In this document: one piece after another, positions 53,078 to 59,094 of the stretch | Layout of the letters: each line of letters starts with the position of its first letter | Position numbering within the stretch: position 1 is the stretch's first letter | DNA from: Faecousia sp. | Lineage (GTDB): Bacteria > Bacillota > Clostridia > Oscillospirales > Oscillospiraceae | Assembly: GCA_029257335.1 (NCBI GenBank) | Contig: JARIBV010000082.1 | Location: 1-64,000, forward strand | DNA length: 64,000 nucleotides | Reading direction: 5' to 3' | The notes under the pieces: generated by a model | Told to the model about the DNA's origin: nothing | What the model saw: the letters and a program-made list of their open reading frames with translations, nothing else | The model's database searches: none | Program-made: the position numbers and the translations under genes

Positions 53078-53404
53078 ATGGACATTCAGCTGAAACGAGG
53101 TCTCCTGGATGTATGTGTTCTGGCGGCAATCAAAAGCAGGGATTCCTATGGATATCAGATTGTGAAGGATATCAAGCCCTTTGTGGAAATTTCAGAATCG
53201 ACCCTCTATCCCATCCTGCGCAGATTGGAAAGCGCGGAGCTTTTGTCCGTATATTCGGTGGAACATAACGGAAGACTTCGGAAATATTATCATATCACCC
53301 CGTTGGGACGAAATCGCATTGAGGCATTCAAGGAGGAATGGAAGGAACTCCAGTCGATTTATCAATTTGTTGTGAGGGAGGATATAAACAATGACGAAAT
53401 ATGA
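53078..53404 (+). CDS. PadR-family transcriptional regulator
   Basis: The 108-aa protein is a PadR winged helix with short C-terminal dimerisation helix: LKRGLLDVCVLAAIKSRDSYGYQIV (core DVCVLAAIKSRDSYGY, about 10-25), STLYPILRRLESAELL (about 47-62) and GRLRKYYHITPLGR. The length is that of the small PadR-s2 group. GGAAGGAGG precedes the ATG. Its 3' end overlaps the DUF1700 gene by 14 nt, a conserved Firmicutes arrangement that senses cell-envelope stress or antimicrobials in some species. Confidence 0.94.
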   Translation: MDIQLKRGLLDVCVLAAIKSRDSYGYQIVKDIKPFVEISESTLYPILRRLESAELLSVYSVEHNGRLRKYYHITPLGRNRIEAFKEEWKELQSIYQFVVREDINNDEI

Positions 53405-53993
53405 GTTTCTTTCTGAGCTTCGGGAAGGGTTGTCCGGGCTGCCGGAAGAAGATATTCAAAAATCTGTGGACTATTACAGCGAGATGATAGAGGATCAGAT
53501 AGAAGACGGCATTGCGCAGGAAGAAGCGGTAAAGGCCATGGGCTCCGCTGCGAAGATTGCCAATCAGATCCTGATGGACACGCCGCTTCCGAAGCTCATG
53601 AAGGCAAAGGCAAAGCCGAACAGAACGCTCAAAGCGGGAGAAATCGTCCTTCTGATTCTGGGGGCGCCTCTGTGGCTGTCTCTGCTTTTGGCGGGAGTGC
53701 TGACGATTGCTGCGATTTATACTGCGATTTGGGCGATGATTGCATCGCTTTATGTTGCCGTTTTGGCGGTGGGCATAGGGGCGTTTGCGGGAGTGATCGG
53801 TTTTGGCGTGCTTCTCATTGAGCATCAATTTGTTCAGGCGGCAATGTACCTGGGCCTGGGACTGATGCTGGGTGGCACCATGATTGTGCTGTTTTTGGGC
53901 TGCAACCTGATTGCCAAGGGAGTTGCGGCAGGAAGCAGACGCATCCTGCGGGGGCTGAAATCCTGCTTTATCGGAAAGGGGAATAGAGAATGA
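53391..53993 (+). CDS. DUF1700 (HAAS-domain) membrane protein
   Basis: The 200-aa protein has an N-terminal HAAS/DUF1700 motif (FLSELREGLSGLPEEDIQKSVDYYSEMIEDQIEDG, core LPEEDIQKSVDYYSEM) and AMGSAAKIANQIL, followed by three to four membrane segments (about 78-175). PadR-DUF1700 pairs are common; the HAAS domain probably contacts the regulator at the membrane. Overlaps both neighbours, so it is translationally coupled. Confidence 0.92.
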   Translation: MTKYEFLSELREGLSGLPEEDIQKSVDYYSEMIEDQIEDGIAQEEAVKAMGSAAKIANQILMDTPLPKLMKAKAKPNRTLKAGEIVLLILGAPLWLSLLLAGVLTIAAIYTAIWAMIASLYVAVLAVGIGAFAGVIGFGVLLIEHQFVQAAMYLGLGLMLGGTMIVLFLGCNLIAKGVAAGSRRILRGLKSCFIGKGNRE

Positions 53994-54838
53994 AACACTC
54001 AAAAAAGAAAGCCTTGATGATTGCGGCCGCACTGCTGGCAGCAGGCTTTCTGGTCTGTATTGGGGCATTGGCCTGGATCCGATTCGATATGACCAAATTA
54101 AGTACCGTACAATTCACCAAGAAAACCCAGGAAGTGCTCGAGAGCTTTCAAAATATACAAATCAAAACGCAGGCCTGTGACATTCAGTTCCTGCCCTCCG
54201 AGGATGATCGCTGCAAAGTGGTGTACCCCGAAGGACGGAACAGCACCTGTTCTGTTTTTGTGGAAGCAGACACTCTGGTTATCCGGCAGAAAGATACCCG
54301 CAAGTGGTACGAGTATATTGGATTTTCCTGGGATGAGCAAAAATTAACGGTCTATCTGCCACAAACCGAATACAAGGAATTTGCCCTGGAAACCGGCATC
54401 GGAGATGTTGAAGTTCCTATGGATTTTACTTTTACGGAGGCCTCTCTTAGCAGTGACAGCGGAGATTTCTGCTTTGGCGCGGCGGTAAAGGAGACCCTTA
54501 CCGTGGAAACCCTCATCGGAGATCTGAAACTGCATCATGTGACTGCAAAAAACATACAGGCGCAATCCACAAGCGGGGATATTGAGGTCGTTCGTGCGGT
54601 CGCCCTGGAGCAGATGAAGCTGGAAAGCACCAGCGGAGAAATCGAGCTTAAGCACTGCGATGCTCCGATTATGTGGTTAAAGACGGTCAGCGGTGATGTG
54701 GAGGGCTCTCTTATGACCGGGAAAGTATTTGAAATTGAGACGCACAGCGGAGATGTCCGGGTCCCTCCATTGGGCACCGGGGGAAAATGCCGGATTGAAA
54801 CAGTCAGCGGAGACATAGAAATAGAAACCGGAAATTAA
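53990..54838 (+). CDS. DUF4097-family surface beta-helix protein
   Basis: The 282-aa protein has an N-terminal membrane anchor (about residues 8-27) and a repetitive beta-strand domain (about 55-282) with recurring SGDI/SGDV units (IGDVEVPM, SGDFCFGAA, SGDIEVVRA, SGEIELKHC, SGDVEGSL, SGDVRVPP, SGDIEIET), the hallmark of DUF4097. It overlaps the DUF1700 gene by 4 nt (ATGA). Role is unknown; in such operons it is thought to act in envelope sensing. Confidence 0.9.
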   Translation: MKHSKKKALMIAAALLAAGFLVCIGALAWIRFDMTKLSTVQFTKKTQEVLESFQNIQIKTQACDIQFLPSEDDRCKVVYPEGRNSTCSVFVEADTLVIRQKDTRKWYEYIGFSWDEQKLTVYLPQTEYKEFALETGIGDVEVPMDFTFTEASLSSDSGDFCFGAAVKETLTVETLIGDLKLHHVTAKNIQAQSTSGDIEVVRAVALEQMKLESTSGEIELKHCDAPIMWLKTVSGDVEGSLMTGKVFEIETHSGDVRVPPLGTGGKCRIETVSGDIEIETGN

Positions 54839-54851
54839 AGAAACCCACCAA

Positions 54852-54903
54852 AGGTCCACCGGCCCTGTGAATGGATACACAGGGCTGGTGGATCATTGTT
54901 TTT
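54852..54903 (+). terminator. Terminator of the padR operon
   Basis: The stem GGTCCACCGGCCCTGTG pairs with CACAGGGCTGGTGGATC (two wobble or mismatched pairs) with a 9-nt loop, followed by ATTGTTTTT. Confidence 0.88.
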
Positions 54904-54910
54904 CCAAATG

Positions 54911-54975
54911 TTTACAGACTTTAACAGAATCTTTCCCAAACCGCGATTGGGGATTTAACACAAACTTTTTATAAT
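54911..54975 (+). promoter_or_regulatory. pst operon promoter with Pho-box-like repeats
   Basis: TATAAT lies at 54970-54975 without a proper -35 box. Upstream are spaced hexamers resembling PhoP repeats TT(A/C/T)ACA: TTTACA (54911-54916), TTAACA (54921-54926), and TTAACA (54955-54960) with TTTTTA at 54966. This fits a PhoP-activated promoter; the PhoP/PhoR-like pair encoded at 48.5-50.6 kb is the natural candidate. Confidence 0.65.
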
Positions 54976-55045
54976 TGAACTTGTCCAATGGTTCTGAAAG
55001 AACCAAAAAAACAAATGGATATGAAATAGAAAGGAAATGCAAACG

Positions 55046-55903
55046 ATGAATGTTTGGAAAAAGATGGCAGCGTTTGCCATGGCAGGCATTGTGAGTGCAG
55101 GCCTGTTTGCGGGTTGTGGAAAGACAGAAGGAAATCAGATTACCGTAGTTTCCAGAGAAGAAGGCTCCGGCACCAGAGGTGCTTTTGTAGAGCTGATGGG
55201 AGTGCAGACAGAAGAGGGAGACAAAACCACACAGAATGCGGAAATCGCAAACTCCACTTCGTTGGTGCAGAATACGGTTTCCGGCAATCAGAACGCCATT
55301 GGCTACCTGTCTCTGGGCGCCTATGACAGCAATCTGGTAAAGGCGGTGTCCATAGACGGGGTTGCGCCCACGGTGGAGAATATCAAACAGGGCACCTATG
55401 CCGTGGCCCGGCCCTTCCTGGTTTGCTACCGGGAGGAGAATCTGACAGACCTGGGAAAAGATTTTATGAGCTTCGTTCTCAGCGAGGAGGGACAGAAGAT
55501 CGTGGAAGAGGAGGGCTACATCGCCGCCGTGGACAATGCGGCTGCCTATACCCCTTCCGGCCTTACGGGTAAACTGAGTCTGGACGGCTCCACCTCTGTT
55601 GGCCCTGTGATGGAGGTCCTGGCAGAGCGGTATCGGGCCCTGAATCCTGATGTGGTCATCGATATCCAGCAGACCGGCTCCGGTACGGGCATCACCGCCG
55701 CCATTGACGGTTCCTGTGAGATCGGTCTCAGCTCCAGAAATCTGAAGGAAGAAGAAATCGCCAAGGGTCTGTCCTACACCGCCATTGCCATGGACGGAAT
55801 TGCGGTGATCGTGCACAAGGACAACCCCGCAGACGATCTGACCCAGGAGCAGATCCGGAAGATTTACACCGGCGAAGTGACGGCCTGGAACGAACTGGGC
55901 TAA
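55046..55903 (+). CDS. pstS: PstS-type phosphate-binding lipoprotein, circularly permuted
   Basis: The 285-aa lipoprotein (lipobox FAGC, Cys24) should bind phosphate for PstCAB. All family motifs are present in permuted order. First comes the normally second half: ITVVSREEGSGTRGAF (32-47), NAIGYLSLG (83-91), ARPFLVCY (121-128), GQKIVEEEGYI (149-159). After a linker (about 160-176) the normally N-terminal half follows: LDGSTSVGPVMEVLAE (179-194), QQTGSGTG (208-215), AMDGIAVIVHKDNP (248-261), ending TAWNELG, where normal PstS would run on into the VV.RE.GSGTRGAF segment. Length is normal. AAAGGA sets the start at 55046 over 55037. Confidence 0.94.
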   Translation: MNVWKKMAAFAMAGIVSAGLFAGCGKTEGNQITVVSREEGSGTRGAFVELMGVQTEEGDKTTQNAEIANSTSLVQNTVSGNQNAIGYLSLGAYDSNLVKAVSIDGVAPTVENIKQGTYAVARPFLVCYREENLTDLGKDFMSFVLSEEGQKIVEEEGYIAAVDNAAAYTPSGLTGKLSLDGSTSVGPVMEVLAERYRALNPDVVIDIQQTGSGTGITAAIDGSCEIGLSSRNLKEEEIAKGLSYTAIAMDGIAVIVHKDNPADDLTQEQIRKIYTGEVTAWNELG

Positions 55904-55968: not shown

Positions 55969-56820
55969 ATGGCAAAATTTCGGGAAACCGCCATGCGCTA
56001 TGTATTTTTGCTGTCGGCGGTTCTCTGCATCGCCTGTGTAGGCGTCATTTGTGTGTATCTTCTGGGAAGCGGGATTCCCACCATGTTTGAAATCGGTCTG
56101 GATAACTTCTTCGGAACCACATGGAAGCCGGGAAGCGGAAGCTATGGTATTTTTCCCTTTATTGTGGGATCGATCTATGTGACGGCGGGAGCGATCCTCA
56201 TCGGTGTGCCCATCGGTGTGCTGTGCGCCGTATATCTGGCCTGGTTTTGCCCTCAAAAGCTGTATAAGGTTCTGAATCCTGCGGTGCGGCTGATGGCAGG
56301 AATCCCCTCCATTATCTACGGCTTTTTCGGCCTGACGGTATTGGTCCCCATGATACAGTCTATGACCGGAACATCCGGCAAAGGGCTTTTGACCGCCTCT
56401 CTGCTTTTGGGCATTATGATCCTGCCCACCATCATCGGCACTGCGGAGCCTGCATTGAGAGCGGTACCAAGGCCCTACTATGACGGAGCCCTGGCTCTGG
56501 GGGCAACCCATGAAAGAAGCGTATTTTCCGTGGTTGTTCCTGCGGCATCCTCCGGTCTGATGTCCGGTGTCATTCTGGGTATTGGCCGTGCCATTGGAGA
56601 GACCATGGCGGTCATCATGATTGCGGGAAATCAGACAAGAATGCCGGGAGGCCTGTTTGACGGACTGAGAACCATGACCTCCAATATTGTGATGGAAATG
56701 GGCTATTCCACAGGACTTCACCGGCAGGCCCTGGTGGCTACGGGTGTGGTACTGTTTGTCTTCATCCTACTTATTAACCTGCTGTTTTCTCTGGCAAAGA
56801 AGAAGGAGGGAACCGAATGA
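55969..56820 (+). CDS. pstC: Phosphate ABC transporter permease PstC
   Basis: The 283-aa permease has six hydrophobic segments and the PstC hallmarks GSYGIFPFIVGSIYVT (about 49-64) and the EAA-type loop with GALALGATHERSVFSVVVPAASSG (core LGATHERSVF). IGRAIGETMAVIMIAGN (about 202-218) is typical. Two starts 6 nt apart are possible (55963, 55969); both have a GA-rich RBS. In normal PstC order; overlaps pstA by 4 nt. Confidence 0.95.
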   Translation: MAKFRETAMRYVFLLSAVLCIACVGVICVYLLGSGIPTMFEIGLDNFFGTTWKPGSGSYGIFPFIVGSIYVTAGAILIGVPIGVLCAVYLAWFCPQKLYKVLNPAVRLMAGIPSIIYGFFGLTVLVPMIQSMTGTSGKGLLTASLLLGIMILPTIIGTAEPALRAVPRPYYDGALALGATHERSVFSVVVPAASSGLMSGVILGIGRAIGETMAVIMIAGNQTRMPGGLFDGLRTMTSNIVMEMGYSTGLHRQALVATGVVLFVFILLINLLFSLAKKKEGTE

Positions 56821-57707
56821 AGAGAACTTCTTCTTTGAGACGGTTTCGTGGACATCCTGCGGCGCTGATGCAGTATCTTCTGGTTCATTTGGCGGCGCTG
56901 CTCACCGGGGGTACGGTCCTGGTGCTCATAGGATATATTCTGATTACCGGAATCCCCCACCTGTCTTTGGACTTGTTTGCATGGAATTTCACCACAGAAA
57001 ATCAGTCCATGATGCCGGCGATTATCAATACCCTGTGCATGACGGTCTTGACCCTGCTGATGGCGGTTCCGGTGGGCGTGGGCGCAGCCATTTATCTGGC
57101 AGAGTATGCCAAGCGTGGAAATGTTCTGGTGAAGATGGTGCGCATTACTGCCGAGACTCTGGCAGGAATTCCCTCCATTGTCTATGGCCTTTTTGGGTTC
57201 ATGTTTTTTAATGTGGCCCTTGGCTGGGGATATTCCATGCTCTCCGGTGCGGTGACCCTGGCCATAATGGTCCTGCCTCTGGTCATGCGCACAACGGAGG
57301 AGGCGCTGAACTCCGTTTCGGATACATTCCGGGAAGGCTCTTTTGGCTTGGGTGCAGGGAAACTCCGGACAGTGTTTCGGATTGTCCTGCCTGCGGCCGT
57401 GCCCGGGATTCTGTCCGGTATTATTTTGAGCATTGGCAGAATTGTGGGAGAATCTGCGGCCTTGATTTTCACCGCCGGGTCCGGACGAGAAAGCCTGAGC
57501 TTTATGACGCAGGATGGATTTTCACTGTTCGCGCCCCTGTTCCAGTCTACCAGAACCCTGTCCGTCCATATGTATAATTTGATGAATGAGGGGCTCCACA
57601 TGGATGAGGCACGGGCTACGGCAGTGGTACTGCTGGTATTGGTGTTGGGAATCAATGCCCTGTCCAGCTATTTGGGCAAGAAGCTGACGAAAGGGAAAGA
57701 ATTATGA
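56817..57707 (+). CDS. pstA: Phosphate ABC transporter permease PstA
   Basis: The 296-aa permease has six membrane segments, [32 protein letters not shown] (core [17 protein letters not shown], about 69-85), [12 protein letters not shown] (about 118-129) and [16 protein letters not shown] (about 207-222). It pairs with PstC and overlaps pstB by 4 nt (ATGA), keeping the stoichiometry of the complex. Confidence 0.95.
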
Positions 57708-58453
57708 TAAAAATGACCATAGAAGAGTTACACCTGCATTATGGGGAGTTTCATGCCCTGAAGGGAATCCATATGAACATTCCGGCCAATGAGGTCACCG
57801 CCCTGATTGGTCCCTCCGGCTGCGGAAAAAGCACTCTGCTCAAAAGCCTGAACCGGATGAATGACCTGGTAGAGGGATGCCGCATAACAGGCTCCGTCCG
57901 GTTGGACGGACAGGATATCTATGGAAACATGGATGTAAACGATTTGCGCCGCCGAGTGGGTATGGTGTTTCAGAAGCCCAATCCCTTTCCCATGAGTGTG
58001 TTTGACAATGTGGCCTATGGCCCACGGACTCATGGCACCAGGAACAAACGAAAGCTGGAAGAGATTGTGGAAAAGGCGCTGCGCCAGGCGGCAATCTGGG
58101 ACGAGGTGAAGGATCGGCTGCACAAAAGCGCAATGGGGCTGTCCGGCGGTCAGCAGCAGCGGTTATGCATCGCACGGGCACTGGCAGTGGAACCGGAGGT
58201 GCTGCTGATGGATGAAAGCACCTCAGCTCTGGACCCCATTTCTACGGGAAGAATCGAGGACCTGATTTTAGAGCTGAAGAAACAGTATACCATCGTTATG
58301 GTGACCCACAATATGCAGCAGGCCCTGCGAATTTCTGATAATACCGCCTTTTTCCTGCTGGGGGACATGGTGGAGATGGACAAGACTCAGAAGCTGTTCA
58401 CCATGCCGGGAGACAAGCGGACCGAAGACTATATTACAGGGAGGTTTGGATAA
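57704..58453 (+). CDS. pstB: Phosphate ABC transporter ATPase PstB
   Basis: The 249-aa ATPase has Walker [10 protein letters not shown] (about residues 36-44), the signature LSGGQQQR (about 147-154), Walker [13 protein letters not shown] (about 167-178) and an H-loop His near 205. The sequence [21 protein letters not shown] is diagnostic of PstB. It drives phosphate import through PstCA. Its stop TAA overlaps the PhoU start (TAATG). Confidence 0.97.
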
Positions 58454-59094
58454 TGAGGAATCGCTTTGACCGGCAGTTGGAGCAGCTGCATGAGGACCTG
58501 GTCCATATGGGCGGACTGTGTAAAAATGCCATTGGAGAAGCCTTGGTTGCGGCCACTCAGGGGGACACGGAAATGGCGCAGAAGGCCATGGAAGACGACG
58601 CAAAAATTGACGATATGGAGCGCTCTATTGAGCGGCAGTGCCTGAATCTCCTGCTACAGCAGCAGCCTGTGGCCAGAGATCTGCGGACCATTTCTTCGGC
58701 CCTGAAGATGATTTCGGACATGGAGCGAATCGGAGATCAGGCCACAGACATTGCTGAAATTGCCCGGTTTTTGCAAAACCGACACGAAACCACCAACGAA
58801 ACCCTGCACACCATGGGCGGAGCAGCCAGCAGCATGGTGGGGCAGGCGGTGGACAGCTTCGTCCGCCGTGACATTGAGCTGGCCAGAAAGGTCATTGCAG
58901 ATGATGATGTGGTAGACAGTCTGTTCGACCATGTCAAAGAACAACTCATTGGGTTCATTGCCAAAAATCCGGGACAGGGAGCCTATTATCTGGATCTGCT
59001 TATGATTGCCAAGTATCTGGAGCGAATTGCAGACCATGCCACAAATATCGCAGAATGGGTGGTTTTTTCCATTACAGGGACCCACGAAGGGTAA
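58453..59094 (+). CDS. phoU: Phosphate-signalling protein PhoU
   Basis: The 213-aa all-helical protein is two PhoU repeats, with the metal-binding-like E/D-x-x-x-D motifs (ALKMISDMERIGDQATDIAE, core MERIGDQATDIAE, about 77-89, and YLERIADHATNIAEW, about 188-202). It links the Pst transporter to the PhoR kinase and damps phosphate signalling when phosphate is plentiful. Last gene of the operon. Confidence 0.95.
   Translation: MRNRFDRQLEQLHEDLVHMGGLCKNAIGEALVAATQGDTEMAQKAMEDDAKIDDMERSIERQCLNLLLQQQPVARDLRTISSALKMISDMERIGDQATDIAEIARFLQNRHETTNETLHTMGGAASSMVGQAVDSFVRRDIELARKVIADDDVVDSLFDHVKEQLIGFIAKNPGQGAYYLDLLMIAKYLERIADHATNIAEWVVFSITGTHEG

Follow-up and report, generated by a model that had tools for sequence, protein, structure and literature searches.

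A circularly permuted phosphate-binding lipoprotein in the pst operon of a Faecousia genome

The pst locus and its binding protein

The stretch analysed here, hereafter the window, comprises the first 64,000 nucleotides of contig JARIBV010000082.1 of Faecousia sp. (assembly GCA_029257335.1), and contains a complete phosphate importer operon headed by pstS, the gene for the phosphate-binding lipoprotein. An earlier sequence-only reading had proposed that this PstS is circularly permuted, and our alignments bear this out: the swap of its two halves is a real circular permutation. The gene and the parts of its product are arranged as follows.

55046..55903, + strand: pstS, circularly permuted phosphate-binding lipoprotein, 285 amino acids (profile and structure-sequence alignments)
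55046..55117, + strand: signal peptide and lipobox FAGC, with Cys24 as the lipidated residue (read from the translation)
55136..55525, + strand: canonical C-terminal half, residues 31-160, with the phosphate-arginine loop SREEGSGTR (R37, S41, G42, T43) (4q8r alignment, half-profile)
55526..55564, + strand: linker (residues 161-173) bridging the old C and N termini (half-profile gap)
55565..55900, + strand: canonical N-terminal half, residues 174-285, with GSTSVGP and QQTGSGTG (4q8r alignment, half-profile)

The open reading frame starts with ATG at 55046, about 10 nt downstream of AAAGGA, and ends with TAA at 55901-55903; an in-frame ATG at 55037 is disfavoured as the start because it sits too near AAAGGA. 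As had been claimed, the lipobox precedes the C-terminal-type half, in which ITVVSREEGSGTRGAF starts at residue 32, and the GSTSVGP half is C-terminal, with DGSTSVGP starting at residue 180. The canonical order, with the GSTS half ahead of the SREEGSGTR half, is therefore reversed. Of 141 distinct permuted proteins, 123 likewise carry a lipobox-like pattern ahead of their first half.

When aligned in two segments, as the sequence-only reading had suggested, residues 31-159 correspond to 119-243 and residues 174-285 to 3-114 of the canonical structure 4q8r, giving two swapped half matches of 112 and 117 bits. Against PDB 4H1X, the protein gives one colinear full-length match, in sequence and in fold. 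Half-profiles built from 23 rows, the window PstS among them, find the canonical C-half (209.5 bits) followed by the canonical N-half (179.5 bits). Pfam PF12849 also matches in two stretches, the best pairing protein residues 173-283 with profile positions 8-125 of 267. The TIGR02136 score of 214.7 bits, compared with a cut-off of 206.6, is summed over two swapped stretches, of which the best pairs residues 174-285 with positions 38-156 of 295. Since such profile annotation sums both halves, it can hide permuted proteins.

The linker had been put at about 17 residues; its position stands, whereas the string quoted for it holds 16 residues and the half-profiles leave approximately 13. Across the 141 distinct permuted proteins the gap between the half-profile matches is 11-19 residues with a median of 13 (11 in one protein, 19 in three), the exact borders varying with the profile used.

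The rest of the operon, stated earlier to be complete, is so: pstS lies directly upstream of pstC-pstA-pstB-phoU, and all four partners score above their NCBIfam cut-offs.

54911..54926, + strand: Pho box TTTACA-GACT-TTAACA (TTTACA-N4-TTAACA), 119 nt before the pstS start codon
55921..56820, + strand: pstC, permease (TIGR02138, 271.9 bits; cut-off 196.45)
56817..57707, + strand: pstA, permease (TIGR00974, 271.3 bits; cut-off 193.45)
57704..58453, + strand: pstB, ATPase (TIGR00972, 416.7 bits; cut-off 343.2)
58453..59094, + strand: phoU (TIGR02135, 232.6 bits; cut-off 130.25)

The Pho box is the single exact match of TTHACANNNNTTHACA in the 64 kb window, where 0.02 would be expected, and the pattern with a 5-base spacer has no match there. 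The pattern was picked after the site was seen, and follows in part the general Pho-box consensus (for the pneumococcal box, see PMC4913102). With spacers of 4-6 bases, a Pho box stands upstream of pstS-pstC loci in 65 of 152 permuted cases (0.8 expected) and in 13 of 30 canonical ones (0.15 expected), the expectations coming from shuffles that move two-base blocks. It also occurs at one of three tandem loci (see below) and, among loci without a partner gene in reach, at 3/5 permuted and 4/8 canonical; a few genes lying in two overlapping loci (e.g. L114 and L198) are counted twice. Upstream of the operon, 53078-54838 encodes a PadR regulator, a HAAS-domain protein and a DUF4097 protein, and by eye an apparent hairpin with a T-run at about 54870-54905 parts this unit from the pst genes.

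The pocket residues R37, S41, G42, T43, S182, S184 and S212 do not vary among the 23 permuted proteins aligned. R37 corresponds to Arg125 of Clostridium perfringens 4Q8R, the phosphate-binding arginine (PMC12421899), and its spacing to G42/T43 equals that of Arg159 to Gly164 and Thr165 in PhoX (PMC5439949). The GSTS and QQTGSGTG serines are placed in the pocket by motif. A second, canonical pstS was looked for, both in the operon and elsewhere, and the family search of the genome (82% complete) finds no PF12849 protein other than that of the window locus. One further weak match (C13, E 8e-4) is a 73-residue piece with only weak, sub-cut-off lipoprotein-family matches in its first 51 residues, and we do not regard it as a PstS. 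From the half matches, the 4H1X match, the pocket motifs, the complete pstCAB-phoU set, the Pho box and the lack of another PstS in the search, the permuted protein is very likely to be the working phosphate-binding protein of its operon, as proposed earlier.

Occurrence of the permuted order

The sequence-only reading took the canonical order as the Gram-positive order, implying that the permuted one is rare. That rarity is not supported: the permuted order is widespread in the window's bacterial class, and a PDB entry showing it dates from 2012. The best 120 of 7866 scored homologues, a sample biased by its choice from the top scores, are all permuted. A motif-order script called 115 of them permuted, three canonical and two undecided; the five misjudged proteins, in which a serine-rich linker or an altered motif fooled the pattern, are permuted by eye.

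The search in relatives that had been suggested was also positive. Among 101 genomes of the same family, 64 have a PstS-like match and 15, the window's included, a junction-spanning copy that the half-profiles confirm as permuted; four of these 15 (G008, G028, G032, G046) hold a canonical copy as well. With a divergent permuted PstS as the query, 54 of 400 same-family genomes (an overlapping set) give a junction-spanning match, and one of them, G559, is a tandem with the half order A-B-A-B. At the level of the class, 76 of 391 genomes are matched, 75 of them across the junction, and the best 30, which were fetched, are all permuted by half-profiles. At the level of the phylum, 143 of 398 genomes are matched, with at least 14 permuted and at least two A-B-A-B genomes among the matches listed. 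Within the window's own genus both orders occur, the permuted one in G591 and G710 and the canonical one in G049.

Permuted loci are present, among others, in records of Thermoclostridium caenicola, Agathobaculum, Dorea, Mordavella, Streptococcus azizii and S. mitis. Of 12 such genomes searched again, those of S. azizii and Thermoclostridium hold a canonical copy too, that of Mordavella holds a second permuted PstS, and that of S. mitis has another frame that, at the cut-off used, is matched by the N-half alone. Permuted PstS also appears in records titled as metagenome-assembled genomes of Spirochaetales (L042), Slackia (L046) and Synergistaceae (L075), which reflect either transfer beyond Bacillota or mis-binned contigs. 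A close-relative scan returned no viral relative of the orphan permuted PstS.

Two other arrangements accompany the permuted operons. In three loci (L109, L110, L222), canonical PstS is fused in frame as a tandem A-B-A-B, in open frames of 531-636 amino acids that head pstCAB-phoU operons and contain the B-A junction. In the PstS tree these tandems fall at two distinct points among the canonical proteins, indicating at least two separate origins, and the two copies in L222 are very similar to each other and lie near a canonical sister. As they branch with canonical proteins, the tandems themselves are ruled out as the ancestor of permuted PstS. In the second arrangement, permuted PstS stands away from the ATP-binding cassette (ABC) importer.

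L180:4570-7183; also L206-L211 and L227: permuted PstS paired with a sodium/phosphate (Na/Pi) cotransporter-PhoU gene

In the genus coded g47, all seven fetched genomes have permuted pstS without an adjoining pstC, directly upstream of a gene resembling the L180 Na/Pi-cotransporter and PhoU gene. The L180 partner protein matches PF02690 (205.8 bits) and PF01895 (57 bits), and 7 bases separate the two genes. The same pair occurs in G1047, from another family. In L059:493-3553, a divergent permuted PstS of this sub-branch overlaps the polyphosphate kinase gene that follows it, and a Na/Pi-like frame, cut by the start of the locus, lies just ahead; an ordinary permuted pst operon stands further on in L059. 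The Pho-box pattern used was not found at any of the eight permuted loci beside a Na/Pi gene.

Origin, function and alternative readings

We consider it highly probable that the window gene supplies a complete Pst importer with its phosphate-binding lipoprotein, and that this protein consists of the canonical half-domains in a new order, most simply explained by a single old permutation. In canonical PstS, lobe I is built from both chain ends and lobe II essentially from the middle: lobe I of CpPstS spans 24-111 and 279-324 (PMC12421899), and domain II of PhoX spans 101-251 (PMC5439949). The phosphate arginine, at position 169 in CpPstS (PMC12421899) and 159 in PhoX (PMC5439949), lies within lobe II. 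Since the folded part of the permuted chain begins 5 or 6 residues ahead of this arginine, the cut would fall in lobe II. Lobe I would then be continuous, lobe II split, and the lipid anchor would hang from lobe II rather than lobe I. This geometry is deduced from the alignment together with PMC12421899 and PMC5439949. The chain would thus have been opened inside lobe II and its old C and N termini closed by the linker of approximately 13 residues; it would fold into the usual two-lobed flytrap, with a pocket formed by the same motifs, and hand phosphate to PstCAB under phosphate scarcity.

The permutation probably arose when the gene was duplicated in tandem and in frame and the outer halves were then lost. 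The tandem fusions found in these bacteria, one of them recent and in the window's own family, show that the first step of this route occurs. Thereafter, the permuted form may have been passed on together with a PstC/PstA lineage of its own, through Clostridia and into Streptococcus. The anchor geometry, the single origin and the duplication route are each deductions of this kind.

The permease trees support such an inheritance. All trees are unrooted and contain some rows on very long branches; the canonical loci in them were sampled for their similarity to the query. Permuted rows were thinned by similarity, to 14 of 109 in the 52-row PstS tree, 37 of 116 for PstC, 55 of 85 for PstA and 22 of 71 for PstB; the PstS trees have 52 rows (L137_AB_2512 dropped) and 61 rows (loci L137 and L139 dropped). 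A first PstC tree, from which a distance filter left out the window PstC, splits 54 permuted loci from 25 canonical and tandem ones at 100/95, and a PstC tree with the window splits 37 from 29 at 97/99. The PstA tree likewise splits 55 from 21 at 97/84. In the 61-row PstS tree, the window protein pairs with G591 at 100/99 within the main permuted group (86/94). The simplest reading of these sequence trees is a single old permutation, inherited with its own PstC/PstA lineage.

Several observations weigh against this account. The 52-row PstS tree splits the permuted rows into two groups on starred branches, and in the 61-row tree the main permuted branch lacks a star (86/94). PstB shows no clear separation, its permuted rows needing two changes in the free tree; when they are held together, the tree is 3.59 log units better (approximately unbiased (AU) test, 0.607), and without one long row they fall on one side at 78/44. 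The Pho-box pattern used was not found at 87 of the 152 permuted-pstC loci, and a second PstS could be missing from a genome that is 82% complete. We infer phosphate binding by the window protein itself. The assignment of SP_2084 (4H1X) to the pneumococcal pst1 operon, though very likely correct, is drawn from gene order in S. mitis together with the presumed order of the pneumococcal locus.

A first alternative, to which we give somewhat better than even chances, is that the permuted order is functionally neutral and carried along by operon inheritance, such that neither the anchor swap nor the permease matters. The same pocket motifs and operon in both forms, the similar Pho-box frequencies given above and the presence of both forms within one genus, and together in 4 of the 15 permuted genomes, are all consistent with neutrality. 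However, PstC and PstA of all sampled permuted loci stand apart from those of all sampled canonical loci, a pattern that co-adaptation would also give. A more far-reaching proposal, which we regard as rather doubtful, is that the permutation moved the anchor to the other lobe and became locked to PstC/PstA by co-adaptation, and that one branch then left the ABC importer to serve the Na/Pi cotransporter-PhoU protein as a lipoprotein receptor or sensor. If so, a secondary phosphate carrier would have gained a lipoprotein receptor or sensor.

Two separate permutations at one and the same break, one in the main group and one in the divergent branch L014/L015/L111, are unlikely. The starred branches of the 52-row tree part these two groups, and they are also apart, without stars, in the free 61-row tree. 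Nevertheless, the AU test does not reject one permuted clade (0.117 with 52 rows, 0.547 with 61), the one-clade tree with 61 rows is 1.32 log units better than the free tree, and in the PstC tree the divergent rows L175 and L176 join the remaining permuted loci at 100/95. The divergent branch is also very long (1.36 and 1.28). As the AU test does not reject one clade and PstC/PstA give one group, we set two independent permutations aside.

A ligand other than phosphate appears very improbable. The function of the window protein is predicted from its sequence, and one permuted sub-branch sits away from pstCAB; against this, TIGR02136 and the pstCAB-phoU partners score above their cut-offs, a Pho box is present, and the phosphate arginine and the SGT loop are kept. 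The idea that another PstS does the work, and that this gene is merely an artefact of assembly or a paralogue that has decayed or been scrambled, can practically be dismissed despite the 82% completeness, since the pocket residues are invariant, the order recurs in 141 distinct sequences among the fetched loci and in the crystal structure 4H1X, and no other PF12849 match was found in the genome. The recurrence by itself refutes an assembly artefact.

Relation to known proteins

Permuted PstS is an already-known kind of protein, with a solved structure public since 2012 and many close homologues. PDB 4H1X, released in October 2012, is the phosphate-binding protein SP_2084 of Streptococcus pneumoniae TIGR4; it differs from the window PstS in organism and linker and has the order of halves in common with it. 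The entry titles of 4H1X carry no word of permutation, and 4h1x was not among the best 50 matches of a canonical control model, which is no proof of absence. The title of another entry, 9L8J, contains the phrase 'reveals an evolutionary hotspot'. In the open-licence literature, covered for the broadest queries through their top-ranked results, we found no paper describing a PstS permutation and none naming 4H1X, and a term search of the main text of PMC12667903 gave no 'phosphate', 'PstS' or '4h1x'.

In S. mitis, about 0.6 kb separates the permuted pstS, which has a Pho box, from a histidine-kinase gene ahead of it that was identified by eye through its HELKTP motif. SP_2084 presumably follows pnpRS in the pneumococcus in the same way. 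The pneumococcal pst1 operon is preceded by the PnpRS genes and has a Pho box; when phosphate is low its expression rises over 100-fold, and without the operon initial phosphate uptake falls about twofold (PMC4913102). The kinase-gene order and the Pho box in S. mitis make it very likely that the PstS of the operon named pst1 in PMC4913102 is the permuted protein, even though PDB labels that pneumococcal protein (4h1x) 'pstS 2' and the canonical one (4exl/4lat) 'pstS 1'.

Compared with canonical PstS (TIGR02136/PF12849; C. perfringens 4Q8R), the window protein has the same halves, pocket motifs and operon, but the halves stand in the opposite order and the lipid anchor is predicted to be on the other lobe. 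The tandem-fused PstS of L109, L110 and L222 has the same halves as well, in the order A-B-A-B instead. That the permuted clade has canonical relatives, sometimes in the same genome, raises the question of why the permutation is kept, and whether the anchor-bearing lobe and the permease partner matter for phosphate hand-over.

Few naturally permuted substrate-binding proteins were found in the literature searched. The nearest described precedent is TpMglB-2 (Tp0684, 'Type Ic') of Treponema pallidum, also a naturally permuted ABC-importer lipoprotein, which binds its ligand and whose topology recurs in Gram-positive, often gut, bacteria (PMC4990184). Unlike the window PstS, whose family has a type II fold (PMC12421899), TpMglB-2 is sugar-binding, has a type I fold and has its N-lobe strands moved to the C terminus (PMC4990184); we cite it as a precedent and do not claim homology. 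The Type Ic class is marked by a type I (cluster B) fold with a fourth hinge crossing. Its authors proposed that membrane anchoring possibly favours such a topology (PMC4990184), and the permuted PstS clade offers a good test bed for this idea.
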